Positions 82 to 7,662 of a DNA stretch of 64,000 nt are shown here, one piece after another. Location: positions 1-64,000 of the forward strand of contig DUZX01000018.1 in NCBI GenBank assembly GCA_013349325.1, written 5' to 3'. Within the stretch, counting starts at the first letter, position 1; each line of letters opens with the position of its first letter. A program made the translations under genes and the position numbers. The notes beneath the pieces are model-generated. The model saw only the letters and a list, made by a program, of their open reading frames with translations. It was not told the origin of the DNA and searched no databases. The DNA comes from Desulfuromonadales bacterium (GTDB lineage Bacteria; Desulfobacterota; Desulfuromonadia; Geobacterales; Pseudopelobacteraceae).

Positions 82-121
82 ATCCGAAACACATTCAAGA
101 TGGTCTGAGGTTGACGGTTAC
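1..121 (+). mobile_element. Right end of an IS66-like insertion sequence
   Basis: The end of the putative transposase is followed by CAAGATGGT, then GACGGTTAC ending at base 121. Read inward from the tip this is GTAACCGTC, and IS66-family elements typically begin GTAA(G/C)CG. The tip overlaps the last codons of the methyltransferase on the other strand, so the element appears to have inserted inside that gene. The left end and the target duplication (8 bp in this family) lie outside the window. Confidence 0.55.
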
Positions 122-2850
122 TTGGCAATGGACTTGAGGGTGACATGCGGAACGGTCTTGTAGATGAAGCCCCCCTTCAGACCTTCATGGGGATATTTTA
201 GAGCAAAGTAATCGTAGCTGGCCGTCACCAGCCGCTGTTTGGCCAGGGTCACCGCCACGCGGGAGGTATCGCAGGTGATCCAGCGGCGGCCCCACTTTTC
301 GGCTACATAGGCAGTGGTGCCGGAGCCGCAGTTATGAACAGCACATACTTCCGTTAGAAAGGAGTGAGCACCTTCTACTTCCAGATCAAAAACATCTTCA
401 CAAGTATCTTCAGTAACTATTTCTGATATTGATGCTGATTCAAGTAAGGAGCCTTGGTATACAACATCTCCAGTCCGCAGGTGTTCTACCGCTAACCAGA
501 AGGCATCATCCTTGAATTCTTCAGCAGCTTCTCCGACAATCGATAACAACCTTTCACACACACCTTCAAGATTTGTTGCAATGTCAAGATTAGTGAAGCG
601 AACAACCGAAATGCCGGAGGCTGTCAAAAATTGTGTGCGTTTTTCATCATAAACAATTGCTTTGTCGGTAAAATGTGAATCTCCGTCAACCTCAATGATC
701 AAGGCGCGTTCGGGGGAAAAGAAATCAACGATATATGGACCGATGGGATGTTGACGTCTGAACTTTACTCCAAACTGTTTGCCACGAAGTTTTTGCCAGA
801 GTAAATTTTCAGCGGCAGTGGTGTTATTTCGGAGTTTGCGAGCTTTCTCAAAGCTCTCATGGGGGTTGTGACTCCAGTTTCGTTCGCCGGAAAATATATA
901 TCGTCGACGCTTGACAAGTACGCGATGATCTTCTGTCAACCAAAGAGTTGCCGGAGATGCTGAATGACGAATACCAAACATGGTGCCTGTATAAGGTTTC
1001 CGGATGGTTCTTATGATTTTGTGTGGCTGTCCATCATGGGAGTAGACGTAATCGCCGGAGTTTAGGGATTCAATAGGGGTAAAAGCATCCCCCCCTGGCC
1101 CCCCCGTAAATGGGGGGGGACTAAAGGCAAATTCCCCCTCGTAAACGGGGGGACAATCAGAAGCGGGTGCAGGTACGCTTTTAAACTCCCCTCCGCTTGC
1201 TGTTTTGGCTCCCCCCCGTTTACGGGGGGGCTGGGGGGGGGTAACAACCATCGTTCCCTTACGTACGCAGGTGGGGTCGAGCACCAGGTCACCGGGATCG
1301 GTGGTCATGAGGAGACAACGTTCGATGACTTTTGAACCTGTTTGAACAACATAATTTCTCGCTTCAGTCTGCGTGCCTGTTCCTGTATCTGTCCATGTGT
1401 TTCCAAGATAGAATACGGGGAAGTCTTCGAAATACCTTCTATAACGTAATGTATCGCCAACGACAGCGAGTCTTAGGCTGCGGGAGAGTCGTTTAATACC
1501 AATTTCAGTTGTAGACCAGTAACGTGTTTTTGGAGTAAAAGTCCTTCCAACAAATTGAAAAGGTTCAGCGTAGGAGACATGTGACGACGTCATATCGCCC
1601 AACCCAAACAATTTACCTTCGCTTTCAATCTGTTTTGGGTTTGCTTTTTCATCAGTTTTAAGACGTCGCCAATCGCCATTCTTAAACTCAATACAACCGA
1701 AAGAATCTGTCGAAACGTTACTGAAGTCCTTTTCCATAAAATGCTGTCTATACTTCAATACTGTTTTTGTTTTTGCATACCAGAGAATATAATCGCATTC
1801 TGTCGGTAGATAATCAGCAGCAAGATTGCTTGTTTTCCTGAATGAAATTTGGCTGACAAAATTGTTTTCACCAAACACCTCATCCATCAACTCCCGCACA
1901 TGATGAACATTCTCATCCGAAATCTGCACAAAAACACTTCCCGACTCGCTCAGCAGGTCTTTCGCCAAGAGCAGCCGGTCGCGCAGATAGGTCAGATACG
2001 AGTGAATCCCCAGCTCCCAGGTATCACGAAAAGCCTTGATCATCTCCGGTTCCTGGGTCAGGTCGGCGTCGCTGCGGTCCTTGACATCCCGCTTCCCCAC
2101 AAACGGCTGAAAATTGGAGCCATACTTGATGCCGTAAGGAGGGTCCAGATAGATCATCTGCACCTGCCCGGCCATCCCCTCCTTCTGCAACAGCGAGTTC
2201 ATCACCAGCAGCGAATCGCCAGCCACCAGCCGGTTGGCCCAGCCGCGATCATGCTTGTAGAAGTCGATGGCGTCCCGAAGCGGCAGGCTCTCAAAGGGCG
2301 CCTCGAACAAATTTGGTTGCGATAAGCGGCTTCCCCGCCTCCCCAACCCTCCCCCGCCAGGGGGGAGGGAGCTGAGTTGTTTGCGCACGGCAGCCAGGAT
2401 GCTCATTGGGTCCATCCGCTCGTGAACGTGCAGCGAGACGGTATCTACCTCAAAACTGGTTCGCTCGGCCTTGCCGGTCCAGTTCAGATACGGGGATTGC
2501 AAACGCTTCAGCTCTTCCAGCGCCGCCCGCATTTCCGCTTCATCACCGGAGGCCAGGGCGTTATCTATCAGGGTTTCAATGCTTGAACGGCCGCTGTCAA
2601 ACTGAAGAGCAGGGTCCAGATGTGGATCATAGTTCCAGACGGTTTTGGGAGTGTCCGGATCAGTGGATGCGTTGACGACTCCGACTTCGGGGTTGTTTTT
2701 GCGACGGTCAAGATGCCGGTAAGAGATGATCTGCGCTTCCCCCCCGTTTACGGGGGGGCCAGGGGGGGAAGCGGCTTTCGGTTTGCGGACTTTCTTCTCC
2801 GTAGCAGCAGTTTCGGTGAATCCTTCAAGAGTCGTCTGCTGCTCGTCCAT
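118..2850 (-). CDS. Beta-class DNA methyltransferase (type III Mod-like), interrupted by an intein and truncated at its 3' end
   Basis: This is an N6-adenine/N4-cytosine DNA methyltransferase in which catalytic motif DPPYG (near residue 237) precedes SAM-binding motif I, the beta-class order. Motif I, DPT-CGSGTTA, is split by a 313-residue intein, leaving extein parts of about 527 and 70 residues. I chose the ATG at 2850 because GGGAGG lies just upstream; an in-frame ATG at 2868 lacks this. The protein ends abruptly after VTLKSIAK, with the stop lying in the IS66-like end, so it is probably shortened. In-frame GC-run palindromes add Gly/Pro-rich stretches near its N-terminus, near residue 170 and inside the intein. 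No restriction partner is visible here. Confidence 0.85.
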   Translation of the reverse strand: MDEQQTTLEGFTETAATEKKVRKPKAASPPGPPVNGGEAQIISYRHLDRRKNNPEVGVVNASTDPDTPKTVWNYDPHLDPALQFDSGRSSIETLIDNALASGDEAEMRAALEELKRLQSPYLNWTGKAERTSFEVDTVSLHVHERMDPMSILAAVRKQLSSLPPGGGGLGRRGSRLSQPNLFEAPFESLPLRDAIDFYKHDRGWANRLVAGDSLLVMNSLLQKEGMAGQVQMIYLDPPYGIKYGSNFQPFVGKRDVKDRSDADLTQEPEMIKAFRDTWELGIHSYLTYLRDRLLLAKDLLSESGSVFVQISDENVHHVRELMDEVFGENNFVSQISFRKTSNLAADYLPTECDYILWYAKTKTVLKYRQHFMEKDFSNVSTDSFGCIEFKNGDWRRLKTDEKANPKQIESEGKLFGLGDMTSSHVSYAEPFQFVGRTFTPKTRYWSTTEIGIKRLSRSLRLAVVGDTLRYRRYFEDFPVFYLGNTWTDTGTGTQTEARNYVVQTGSKVIERCLLMTTDPGDLVLDPTCVRKGTMVVTPPQPPRKRGGAKTASGGEFKSVPAPASDCPPVYEGEFAFSPPPFTGGPGGDAFTPIESLNSGDYVYSHDGQPHKIIRTIRKPYTGTMFGIRHSASPATLWLTEDHRVLVKRRRYIFSGERNWSHNPHESFEKARKLRNNTTAAENLLWQKLRGKQFGVKFRRQHPIGPYIVDFFSPERALIIEVDGDSHFTDKAIVYDEKRTQFLTASGISVVRFTNLDIATNLEGVCERLLSIVGEAAEEFKDDAFWLAVEHLRTGDVVYQGSLLESASISEIVTEDTCEDVFDLEVEGAHSFLTEVCAVHNCGSGTTAYVAEKWGRRWITCDTSRVAVTLAKQRLVTASYDYFALKYPHEGLKGGFIYKTVPHVTLKSIAK
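331..1269 (-). mobile_element. Intein with DUF559-type endonuclease domain, in methyltransferase motif I
   Basis: The 313-residue intein starts at Cys (CVRKGTMVV, block A) and ends with CAVHN followed by the +1 Cys of the host sequence CGSGTTA. Block B is WLTEDHRVLVK, with the TxxH pattern. Block F is VFDLEVEGAHSFL. All canonical splicing residues are present, so splicing should rebuild DPTCGSGTTA. Between blocks B and F lies a DUF559 domain (TAAENLLWQKLRGKQ, then IVDFFSPERALIIEVDGDSH), a PD-(D/E)XK/Vsr-related fold that can act as a homing nuclease. About 50 residues of repeat-derived sequence interrupt the loop after block A. Confidence 0.9.
1088..1242. repeat. Cluster of three GC-run palindromes inside the intein
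   Basis: Three palindromes of the form C(6-7)-GTAAA/TTTAC-G(6-7) lie at about 1099-1119, 1134-1152 and 1211-1230, with extra C or G runs beside them. They are translated in frame as Pro/Gly-rich sequence between VVTP and DAFTPIESL of the intein. The last copy has the same 20-base core as the copy at 2739-2758. Confidence 0.85.
2336..2370. repeat. GC-run palindrome within the methyltransferase gene
   Basis: A stem of CCCTCCCCC and GGGGGAGGG around a short loop (2348-2369) is read in frame as LPPGGGGLGRRG. It falls between the N-terminal region and the methyltransferase core, so it probably lies in a tolerant linker. It is related in style but not in exact sequence to the GTTTAC palindromes. 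Confidence 0.7.
2738..2769. repeat. GC-run palindrome near the methyltransferase N-terminus
   Basis: C7-GTTTAC-G7 at 2739-2758, followed by CCAGGGGGGG, is translated in frame as SPPGPPVNGGE. Its 20-base core is identical to 1211-1230 inside the intein, so one repeat family has entered this gene more than once. Confidence 0.8.
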
Positions 2851-3012
2851 CAGCCCTCCCAATGTCATTATTATTGAGGTAACACAACAAATTCAAAACA
2901 GCCATATAATCAAAAACACAATTTATTTCGCATATTTCAAGATTTGAGTCAAGGAAAGGATACGACATCATCAGCTAAGGTGACAGTAGACTCATAACAA
3001 AAATGTCCGTGA

Positions 3013-3084: not shown

Positions 3085-5199
3085 ATGGATCTGCGAAAAA
3101 CACACACCACCATCCTTAACCAGGGCGATCCGGAACAGAAGCGCGCTGAAATTCTGGAATATTTTCACGCTACCTTCGAAATCGACGAACGACTCTACGA
3201 CACCCTCCTCAATGACGATAGCTTTTATCTGCGCCCCGACCGGCTGCGCCATCCGTTGATCTTCTATTTCGGGCATACCGCAACCTTTTTTATCAACAAG
3301 CTGACCGTTGCCAAGGTCATTGACCAGCGTATCAACCCCCGTTTCGAATCGTTGTTTGCCGTGGGGGTGGACGAAATGTCCTGGGATGATCTCAACGAAG
3401 CCCATTATGACTGGCCGACACGCCACCAGGTAAAGGAGTACCGCGATCAGGTGCGTGTGCTGCTTGACCGGTTGATCCGCACTTTACCGCTCACGTTACC
3501 GGTCGGCTGGCAAGATCCGTTCTGGGGCATCATGATGGGGATCGAACACCAGCGTATTCATCTGGAAACCTCCTCGGTGCTGATCCGTCAGCTCCCGCTC
3601 GACCAGGTACAGCAGCTACCGCTGTGGGATATCTGCCACGAAACGGGTGAACCGCCGGTCAATCAGTTGTTGAACGTAGCGGGTGGAGCGGTGACGCTGG
3701 GTAAATCAAAAGAGCACCCGCTCTACGGCTGGGATAACGAGTATGGGCAGCACTGCGCTGAAGTACCCGGTTTTAAGGCCGCGCAGTATCTGACCTCCAA
3801 CCGTGAGTTTCTGAACTTTGTCGAGGCCGGCGGTTATCTGGAGCGGCAGTGGTGGACGCAGGAGGGGTGGCATTGGCGCGAGTTCAAGCAGGCTGAACAT
3901 CCACTCTTCTGGATTAAATCCGGTGATAGCTGGAAATTACGGACGATGGCGGCCGAGATCGACCTCCCCTGGAACTGGCCGGTCGAGGTCAATTATCTGG
4001 AGGCCAAAGCCTTTTGCAACTGGAAATCAACGGCAATGGGCAAGAGTATCCGGATGCCCAGCGAGGATGAGTGGAACCGTCTGCGTGACATCTGTGATAT
4101 CCCTGATTCTCCAGCCTGGGAGACCGCGCCCGGCAATATAAATCTGGAATGGTGGGCCTCCTCCTGCCCGGTCGACCGTTTCAAAAGCGGTGATTTCTTC
4201 GATGTGCTCGGTAACGTCTGGCAATGGACCGAAACCCCGATCTATCCGTTTCATGGTTTTGAGGTCCATCCCTGGTACGACGACTTCTCGACGCCGACCT
4301 TTGATACCCGCCATAATCTGATCAAAGGTGGCTCCTGGATTTCAACCGGCAATGAAGCCACGCGGGAAGCGCGCTATGCCTTCCGGCGGCACTTTTTCCA
4401 GCACGCCGGTTTCCGTTATGTGCAGAGCGATGCCGAGATCATCATCCACGATGGTCAGTACGAAAGCGATGCACTGGCGGCCCAGTACTGCGATGCCCAT
4501 TACGGACCGCACCACTTTGGCGTAGCAAATTTTCAGGCGGCCTGCGCAGAAATCTGTCTGGAGCAGATGCAGGGACGCAATCTGGGACATGCTCTCGATC
4601 TCGGCTGCGCCGTGGGACGGGCGTCGTTCGAACTGGCGCGCGGCGGCTTTGAACAGGTTACCGGGCTGGACTTCTCGACCCGCTTTTTCCGGCTGGCGGC
4701 CCGTATGCAACAGGAGGCCGCCCTGCGCTATGCGCTGCCGGAAGAGGGGGAAATCGTTTCATTTCATGAGATCGATCTGGCGGAATTCGGGCTGGCGGAG
4801 ACCCGCCAGCGGGTGCAGTTTTATCAGGGGGATGCCTGTAACCTGCCGGAAAAATTCAAGGGGTATGATTTGATACTGGCTGCCAACCTGATCGACCGGC
4901 TCTACTCGCCGCGAAAATTCCTCAGCTCGATTCACGAACGGCTCAATCCGGGCGGCCTATTGGTGCTGACGTCACCCTACACCTGGCTTGAGGAATATAC
5001 AAAAAAAACGGAGTGGCTGGGGGGCTACCGTGAGGCGGGTGAGCCGGTCTGGTCGCTGGATGGCGTGCAGAGCGCCCTGTCAGAGCACTTCCGCCTGCTG
5101 GGCGAGCCTCGCGACCTGCCGTTTGTAATTCGCGAGACCCACCGCAAGTTTCAGCATACCGTGGCACAGCTAACGGTGTGGGAGCTTACGTCGTCGTAA
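3085..5199 (+). CDS. ovoA: 5-histidylcysteine sulfoxide synthase / mercaptohistidine methyltransferase
   Basis: OvoA joins cysteine to histidine at C5 using non-heme iron and oxygen, then N-methylates the mercaptohistidine on the way to ovothiol. The 704 residues show the three expected modules: a DinB-like region with iron ligands H64 and the HQRIHLE (HxxxHxE) motif at 155-161, a formylglycine-enzyme-like middle with [11 protein letters not shown], and a C-terminal SAM methyltransferase with [12 protein letters not shown] near residue 503. GAGGAGG lies 7 bases before the ATG. It stands alone, and its end overlaps the convergent purT by 14 bases. The PLP lyase step (OvoB) is not in the window. 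Confidence 0.92.
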
Positions 5200-6367
5200 T
5201 CTGCACGGCATGAGCGCACTGTTCCGCTCTGCTTCTGGCTTCATCGGTTGTGGTTCCCAGAGTCAGGGCTACTCCCATGCGGCGGCCGGGGCGGGTGTCC
5301 GGTTTGCCGAACAGCCGCAGTTTGCTGGCAGGGATTGCCAGAGCTTCGGCAATTCCGCTAAAACCAACGACATCATGACTCTCCTTAGCCAGTATGACAT
5401 GGCTGGCCGCCGGCCCCAGATTGCTTATCTCCAACACCGGCAAGCCGAGAATCGCCCGCACATGCAGCTCAAATTGGGTGAGATTCTGTGAGATCATCGT
5501 GACCATACCGGTATCGTGTGGACGTGGTGAAACCTCACTGAACCAGACCTGCTCGCCTCGGATGAACAGCTCCACCCCGAAAATTCCGGTTCCCCCCAGG
5601 GCGGTCGTAACCGCTTCGGCCTGCCGTTTTGCTTCTGCCAGGGCCGTCGGCGTCATGGCCATCGGCTGCCATGATTCGTGATAATCGCCCTTGATCTGCA
5701 CATGGCCGATGGGGGGGCAAAATGAGGTGCCACCCTGATGGCGAACCGTCAGCAGTGTGATTTCGTAGTCGAAATTGATGAACTCCTCAATTATGGCCGT
5801 ATCCGAAACACCGCGCGCCCCATCCATGGCATAGCGCCAGGCCTGATCAAGCTGTGAGGCATCCTGCACGACGCTCTGCCCCTTGCCGGACGAGCTCATG
5901 ATCGGCTTGATTACGCAGGGAAAACCGATCTGTGCCGCATTGGTACGCAATTCATCGGCTGTTTTTGCAAAGGCGTAGCTGGCCGTCGGCAACCCCAGCT
6001 CTTCCGCTGCCAGACGCCGGATCCCCTCGCGGTTCATCGTCAGGTTAACCGCCCGGGCCGTCGGGATAACCCGCTGACCAGCCTGTTCAAGCTCCAACAG
6101 AAACTCTGTGTCGATGGCCTCGATTTCCGGAACAATCAGGTCGGGGCGCTCCCGTTCCACGATGCTGCGCAGCGCCTCACGATCCAGCATGCTGATGACG
6201 TGACTTCTATGTGCCACCTGCATGGCAGGTGCATCCGGGTAGCGATCAACGGCGATCACTTCAACTCCCAGGCGTTGCGCCTCAATGGCAACCTCTTTGC
6301 CCAGTTCTCCCGAACCGAGCAGCAGCAGTCTGGTGGCCCCCGTTTTTAGTGGTGTTCCCAGTTTCAT
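5186..6367 (-). CDS. purT: Formate-dependent phosphoribosylglycinamide formyltransferase
   Basis: PurT is an ATP-grasp enzyme that makes formyl-GAR from GAR, formate and ATP in purine synthesis, an alternative to folate-dependent PurN. The 393 residues match the usual length of about 390. The N-terminal [20 protein letters not shown] is the preATP-grasp Rossmann loop, and the ATP-grasp region includes [25 protein letters not shown] precedes the ATG. It is transcribed toward ovoA with overlapping 3' ends and seems monocistronic. Confidence 0.96.
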
Positions 6368-6409: not shown

Positions 6410-6688
6410 TTAATCGTCGTGCTTCTTATGTTTCTTATGTTTTTTGTCGTGCCCCTTGTGCTTGCCACGGTCATGTCCCTCTTCTTTTTCCTGAACAATC
6501 ACCCGTTCTCTCTCAATAACCGTCACACGGGGTGCAGGAGGCGGTGGTGGAGGGGCAGGGTTACCGACCTGTACCCGCACGTTGGGAGTTGCCACATCAA
6601 CCGACACATTGGCGGCCACAGCCACGCCGGACAGAAACACAACGGCAACTGCACTGCCAAGGACTGTTTTCATAAGACATTTTTTCAT
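6410..6688 (-). CDS. Small exported protein with His/Lys-rich tail, under a riboswitch
   Basis: The 92-residue product has a Sec signal peptide (MKKCLMKTVLGSAVAVVFLSGVAVAA), a short mature segment, a run of seven prolines, the charged VIERERVIVQEKEE, and a tail alternating His, Lys and Asp (KHKGHDKKHKKHKKHDD). The ATG at 6688 was chosen because AGGAGA lies 9 bases upstream and the signal peptide starts there. An upstream extension of the frame runs through the riboswitch and is not coding. The function is unknown. The tail might bind metal ions or polyanions, which is speculation from composition. It is likely periplasmic or surface-associated. Confidence 0.75.
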   Translation of the reverse strand: MKKCLMKTVLGSAVAVVFLSGVAVAANVSVDVATPNVRVQVGNPAPPPPPPAPRVTVIERERVIVQEKEEGHDRGKHKGHDKKHKKHKKHDD

Positions 6689-6743
6689 ACGCTTTGTTTC
6701 TCCTTTAAAGTTTGATATGTTGCCATCATACAACGGGGTACAC

Positions 6744-6788
6744 AAAAAAACCGGGATGCCGAATTGAAGTGATAGTTCGGCATCCCGG
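6744..6788 (-). terminator. Riboswitch expression platform: intrinsic terminator
   Basis: On the minus strand CCGGGATGCCGAA pairs with TTCGGCATCCCGG around a loop of about 12 bases and is followed by seven T residues. The 5' arm overlaps the 3' part of the aptamer (GCCGGGATGCC), so ligand binding and terminator folding should compete. That is the arrangement of an ON switch. Confidence 0.85.
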
Positions 6789-6855
6789 CTGTCTCGATGA
6801 GATCCAATGGGCTTTCCGCCCCATCTTCGCAGATGGTTTAGTAGTGTCGTATATC
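6770..6855 (-). promoter_or_regulatory. GEMM-I riboswitch, probable cyclic AMP-GMP (3',3'-cGAMP) subtype
   Basis: Read on the minus strand, CTAAACC leads into the perfect hairpin CCATCT-GCGA-AGATGG with a GNRA loop, then GGGCGGAAAGCCC, a second arm GGATCTCATCGAGAC, and AGCCGGGATGCC. This is the GEMM-I layout, and the GGCGGAAAGCC core is typical of the Geobacter GEMM-Ib class reported to bind cAMP-GMP. By my alignment to the V. cholerae Vc2 aptamer, the base equivalent to G20 is A (position 6842), which fits that subtype. It controls the small exported protein. Confidence 0.85.
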
Positions 6856-6877
6856 CTGTGATGGTAAACTGGCGGGC

Positions 6878-6906
6878 AATGTAGCGATTTATAGGGGCAA
6901 AGTCAA
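6878..6906 (-). promoter_or_regulatory. Sigma-70-type promoter for the riboswitch transcript
   Basis: On the minus strand TTGACT (6906-6901) and TACATT (6883-6878) are 17 bases apart. Transcription would start near 6870, just before the aptamer. Confidence 0.6.
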
Positions 6907-7038: not shown

Positions 7039-7662
7039 ATGAAATTCAAACTTATTTCTTCATTACTGCTCGTTATGTTGATTCTTTCAGGGTGTGGTGG
7101 CGGGGAAGTTACTGTAACGGTCACTCAGCCAACGTTTATACAAAGTGATGCACTACTCGACGGCGATATTGAGGTCGCCTCAAACAGTACTATCGTCACA
7201 CAGGGAATTAGCAGGAGCGTTTTTGTAGGAATTGATCCGCTGACATTAACCGAAACGCGCGCATTTCTGGACTTTCCTCTGGCGGGAATACTGACATCAG
7301 CAAATATTTACTCCGCACACCTTGATATTGTGATTGATAGTCTGTCACCGGGACTTGCTACGGTACCTATCCTGATCGACCTTGTTTCCTATCCGCAACC
7401 CTTGCTGGCGGCAGATTTTAGTAGTGCATTTTTCAAAAGTACCACTATCGCCCCTCCCATAACTGTCGCTGATGTTGGTCAACATGTAACCGTAGACGTG
7501 ACCGCCTTGATGCAGGAGGCTCAGGTCCGTGGCCTCTCCCATTTCCAACTTCGCCTGCTCAGCGGTTCCGGCGGAACAGCTACCGGACTGGTTGAGATAA
7601 ACGATAGTACCGGAGTAAACCGAACCACAGACGCTCCGCAGCTGACTGTTGTCTATTACTGA
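7039..7662 (+). CDS. Putative lipoprotein with a DNRLRE-like beta domain
   Basis: The N-terminus MKFKLISSLLLVMLILSGCGGG is a lipoprotein signal with lipobox LSGC. The mature part (about 185 residues) resembles carbohydrate-binding/DNRLRE-type beta-sandwich domains: a repeated aliphatic core with FLDFPLAGI, SANIYSAHLDIVI, VDVTALMQEA and DAPQLTVVYY at the end. The function is unknown. The ATG at 7039 has GGAGG a few bases upstream; a GTG at 7027 lies inside that ribosome-binding site and is rejected. It is divergent from the riboswitch-controlled gene, about 170 bases from its promoter. Confidence 0.75.
   Translation: MKFKLISSLLLVMLILSGCGGGEVTVTVTQPTFIQSDALLDGDIEVASNSTIVTQGISRSVFVGIDPLTLTETRAFLDFPLAGILTSANIYSAHLDIVIDSLSPGLATVPILIDLVSYPQPLLAADFSSAFFKSTTIAPPITVADVGQHVTVDVTALMQEAQVRGLSHFQLRLLSGSGGTATGLVEINDSTGVNRTTDAPQLTVVYY

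Follow-up and report, generated by a model that had tools for sequence, protein, structure and literature searches.

Our analysis indicates that the leader of a small exported-protein gene in the window, a 64,000-nucleotide stretch of DNA from a Desulfuromonadales bacterium, is very probably a GEMM-Ib (cyclic AMP-GMP-selective) riboswitch that turns transcription on. The features of the leader and of the genes behind it, all on the minus strand, are as follows.

6878–6906: sigma-70-type promoter, TTGACT (6906–6901) and TACATT (6883–6878) with 17 nt between, 9 of 12 matches
6776–6852: GEMM-I aptamer of the A20 type (Rfam span), RF01051, 37.4 bits
6855–6852 with 6774–6771 (outer strand) and CG 6849–6848 with 6779–6778 (inner): aptamer P1
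6842: A equivalent to G20 of Vc2, RF01051 position 11 by alignment
6836–6831 with 6826–6821: aptamer P2, closed by the GCGA loop 6830–6827
6820–6810: aptamer core GGCGGAAAGCC
6813–6782: stretch within which aptamer P3 lies
6780: C92 equivalent by alignment to RF01051, also within the terminator stem
6744–6788: intrinsic terminator, CCGGGATGCCGAA (6788–6776) and TTCGGCATCCCGG (6763–6751) followed by T7 (6750–6744), from a direct stem search
6700–6706: ribosome-binding site AAAGGAG
6410–6688: small exported protein of 92 aa, with signal peptide, Pro-rich linker and basic His/Lys-rich tail
5186–6367: purT (formate-dependent phosphoribosylglycinamide formyltransferase), TIGR01142, 605.9 bits, probable second gene of the transcript

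A search of the entire window with 4227 Rfam families found one GEMM-I aptamer. The match runs from 6852 to 6776 and covers model positions 1–87 completely, with E = 0.001 and a margin of only 2.4 bits over the gathering cut-off of 35 bits. A search for the A20 core pattern gives one hit in the window and none in 100 shuffles. The initial annotation had read the element as a GEMM-I aptamer with a GCGA loop, the core and an A in place of G20, and had named a poor covariance score as grounds for rejecting it; the score passes the threshold and each of these parts is present, confirming that the element is a genuine GEMM-I RNA switch. Paired changes across the A20 aptamers support the predicted P1–P2–P3 fold. 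In an alignment of 17 such aptamers (16 distinct), 94% of the cells in the distinct sequences are paired, compared with 34–47% when the partners are slid, and 11 cells carry changes on both sides of a pair. A20, A47 and C92 are invariant in all 17. P3 is the least supported helix, with columns 49 and 78 unpaired in 9 of 16 rows, and the copy in the window has two mismatches there, G49-A78 and A58-C70 (alignment columns).

As a pattern alone the promoter is weak: two such sites were found against 1.1 expected in shuffles, which does not exceed chance. However, all nine other orthologous leaders have TTGACT (TTGACG once), a 17-nt spacer and TATATT, TATAGT, TAGATT or TATAAT at a near-equal distance before the aptamer, and this similarity, together with the match count, bears out the promoter first read by eye. 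The terminator is a perfect 13-bp stem with a 12-nt loop and U7, at about −26 kcal/mol. A generic terminator scan passed over it, because the loop is above the limit of that scan. Its 5′ arm is the 3′ arm of the aptamer, C92 included, as the initial annotation had proposed for the shared arm. The terminators of the orthologous leaders also start within the aptamer 3′ arm and take in C92 every time; aptamer and terminator are therefore mutually exclusive. Compensating changes are seen in the terminator stems, namely GGATGCC/GGCATCC, GGTTGCC/GGCAACC and GGTCGCC/GGTGACC, the last two belonging to further A20 leaders in the genome of the window or to the leader of Pelotalea chapellei.

In the 92-aa protein, the signal peptide is accompanied by a valine-rich stretch, a run of prolines and the tail GKHKGHDKKHKKHKKHDD; the mature part has a pI of about 9.7. 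No Pfam family scores above its cut-off, and NCBIfam gives no match. Weak Pfam matches (PRIMA1, Auts2 and others) lie far under their cut-offs and are due to the Pro-rich composition. The AlphaFold model is disordered past the signal helix, with a mean pLDDT of 57. Orthologues were found in 25 of the 38 related genomes searched and in additional named ones. In ten distinct Geobacterales genomes, that of the window included, the orthologous gene follows the same set of promoter, A20 aptamer and terminator; the nine others, with GEMM-I directly upstream, are represented by loci L016, L017, L018, L020, L071, L075, L081 (Oryzomonas japonica), L083 (P. chapellei) and L085. Judged by identical flanks, L016 is the same sequence as L078 (Pelobacter sp. 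GS8), L017 the same as L077, and L018 the same as L073 (Geobacteraceae bacterium GWC2_55_20). The remaining orthologues have no GEMM-I above cut-off upstream, and the 350 bases upstream of the switch-less orthologues from the 38-genome search contain no complete core. Most orthologues outside these ten genomes lack the switch, and the gene is therefore separable from it and not dependent on it; only part of the group shows the link between switch and gene. The description of the protein as an uncharacterised output still holds, now for a conserved, switch-linked family. We speculate that the protein most likely acts outside the cytoplasm, through electrostatic or metal contact with a surface polymer or mineral.

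The switch was initially said to control one small exported protein. Its position before the small gene stands, but "one" is too narrow. The start of purT lies 42 bp past the stop codon of the small gene on the same strand and has a GGAGG site. In the gap, the scan found no terminator-like site and folding is no better than in shuffles (z = 0.76); a scan for sigma-70-type promoters found no promoter-like site on the purT strand in either the small gene or the gap. With neither a terminator nor an obvious promoter in these 42 bp, read-through should reach purT. None of the 15 same-genus genomes searched has purT, whereas five of seven outgroup genomes do, and the gene shares 83% identity with one of these outgroup copies, from another family. 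This distribution suggests that purT was gained horizontally, and it makes an acquired purT lying under this switch plausible. A transcript of both genes, by which cyclic AMP-GMP would also raise a purine-synthesis enzyme, would extend the riboswitch reading and not compete with it, and we rate its chance at somewhat less than even. Against it, purT is not near the small gene in any other switch-bearing genome, and in most of these a terminator directly follows the small gene (at L075, a different exported-protein gene lies 14 bp behind it). No GEMM-I lies upstream of the other purT genes checked, purN is present in the genome as well, so that purT may be dispensable, and weak or non-sigma-70 promoters are outside the scope of the promoter scan. 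The string ACTAAACC before purT of L112 was considered as an aptamer and rejected, because the rest of the core is missing. Among the 15 matches listed in a literature search on cyclic AMP-GMP riboswitches or purT, none linked the two. More doubtful, though worth stating, is the full reading that a purT absent from genus-mates now sits behind a cyclic AMP-GMP riboswitch and the small gene, with a purine-synthesis step rising with a cyclic purine-dinucleotide signal.

Position 20 is a ligand contact that sets the preference between cyclic AMP-GMP and c-di-GMP, and A20G alone shifts the selectivity of the Gmet_0970 aptamer from the former to the latter (PMC6456294). The A at this position in the window, taken with that published result, supports cyclic AMP-GMP as the ligand. 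The pgcA switch prefers cyclic AMP-GMP by about 1200-fold (PMC6456294). A similar pocket change marks c-AMP-GMP variants elsewhere, and where it was tried it made c-AMP-GMP bind better (PMC9481103). In the genome (72 contigs, 3.58 Mb), ten GEMM-I aptamers score above cut-off, nine with A20 and one with G20. The genome also encodes a putative REC-GGDEF synthase (L105, 1474–2850), whose GGDEF domain best matches 6d9m, the structure of GacA from G. metallireducens (216.6 bits against 145.4 for PleD), and which has a Ser aligned where PleD carries Asp, the Hypr diagnostic in the substrate pocket. The host is thus putatively able to make cyclic AMP-GMP with a Hypr GGDEF enzyme. Because of the nine-to-one ratio and this GacA-like enzyme with its diagnostic Ser, cyclic AMP-GMP is the likely ligand, in agreement with the first reading of the leader as a cyclic AMP-GMP riboswitch.

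The same ON switch might instead answer c-di-GMP, or both dinucleotides, in the cell. In favour of this, the c-di-GMP-I model gives the best full match, canonical GGDEF proteins are numerous in the genome, and the omcST switch reportedly responds to both ligands (PMC6456294). The A20 here, with the genome's G20 aptamer at a different site, the presence of a GacA-type Hypr enzyme and the A20G conversion all count against this possibility, which we regard as improbable. The leader might also be a relic, in which a decayed aptamer is followed by a plain terminator that acts constitutively. This would fit the RF01051 score, the lowest but one among the genome's ten copies, and the two P3 mismatches, but it deserves hardly any credence beside intact ligand-contact positions throughout, a perfect 13-bp terminator, a conserved promoter, a good ribosome-binding site and an intact, conserved open frame.

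The cyclic AMP-GMP ON switch would work as follows. RNA polymerase would start just downstream of 6878 and transcribe the aptamer first. When a GacA-type enzyme raises 3′,3′-cGAMP, the ligand would dock on A20, A47 and C92 and hold P1 and the 3′ arm. The held arm could not pair with TTCGGCATCCCGG, no terminator would form, and transcription would continue into the gene for the small exported protein and probably on into purT. Without ligand, the 3′ arm including C92 would enter the terminator and transcription would stop at U7. Both this anatomy and the pilM switch predict the ON direction: pilM has the same layout, is turned on by its ligand, and has ligand and terminator competing for a single C; C75 of pilM, the counterpart of C92, is the Watson-Crick partner of the ligand (PMC9262584).

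Several of the other aptamers in the genome have arrangements of their own. Three consecutive A20 aptamers, 145 bases apart, precede a DUF5666 lipoprotein gene (L003, 1501–1867; G000:C10:17164-17530), with a clear terminator at the first and similar but weaker stems at the other two; triplets of the c-di-GMP-I class are already known (PMC9481103). Two A20 aptamers precede exported RCC1-repeat proteins (L007 and L010; G000:C11:31731 and G000:C38:22374). The same stem search found no terminator at either, and they may act on translation instead. The sole G20 (c-di-GMP type) aptamer lies before a Pvc16_N gene (PF14065) (L001, 1501–1589; G000:C3:171707-171795, minus strand). Pvc16_N is a marker of extracellular contractile injection systems, and the arrangement suggests control of such a system by c-di-GMP. 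Within the window, a DNA-methylase-like open frame at 118–2868 (minus strand), read by eye, appears to carry an intein (CVRKGTMVV ... VCAVHNCGSGTT) that encloses a DUF559-like nuclease segment. A divergent lipoprotein gene at 7039–7662 (plus strand) matches the DNRLRE domain below threshold, at 25.7 bits (cut-off 34).

Cyclic AMP-GMP riboswitches are established before many exported, cytochrome, pilus and hypothetical genes, so that an uncharacterised output is no surprise. Growth on metal oxides is linked to the cyclic AMP-GMP regulon of Geobacter relatives. Published work already covers the architecture, ligand class and type of output described here; what may be new is the gene family and the arrangement with purT. 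The regulon gains a family of small, basic exported proteins that is conserved and linked to the switch. Since the gene is short and easily deleted or tagged, its role in surface life or metal respiration can be tested directly. Cotranscription would make purT, to our knowledge, an unusual metabolic gene for this regulon. Among known RNAs, c-di-GMP-I-GGC (RF03167) belongs to the same clan and gives a full-length match of 36.7 bits, but this is 22 bits under the cut-off of 59 and membership was rejected; the other A20 copies tested score 42–53 bits, likewise under it. The c-di-GMP-I aptamers (GEMM-Ia, for example Vc2) share the fold and the Rfam model RF01051 with the aptamer in the window, but Vc2 has G20 and the pairs G-C and C-G at 21–22/45–46, whereas the aptamer in the window has A20 with C-G and U-G. 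The closest likeness is to the GEMM-Ib switches of Geobacter, pgcA (GSU1761), Gmet_0970 and pilM of G. metallireducens, in the A20 aptamer, the predicted ON direction, the terminator that draws on the 3′ arm of the aptamer and captures the ligand-pairing C, the GacA-type synthase in the genome and the exported or surface target. Unlike these, the switch in the window, with its ligand predicted from sequence features, precedes neither a cytochrome nor a pilus gene but a small basic exported protein with purT behind it.
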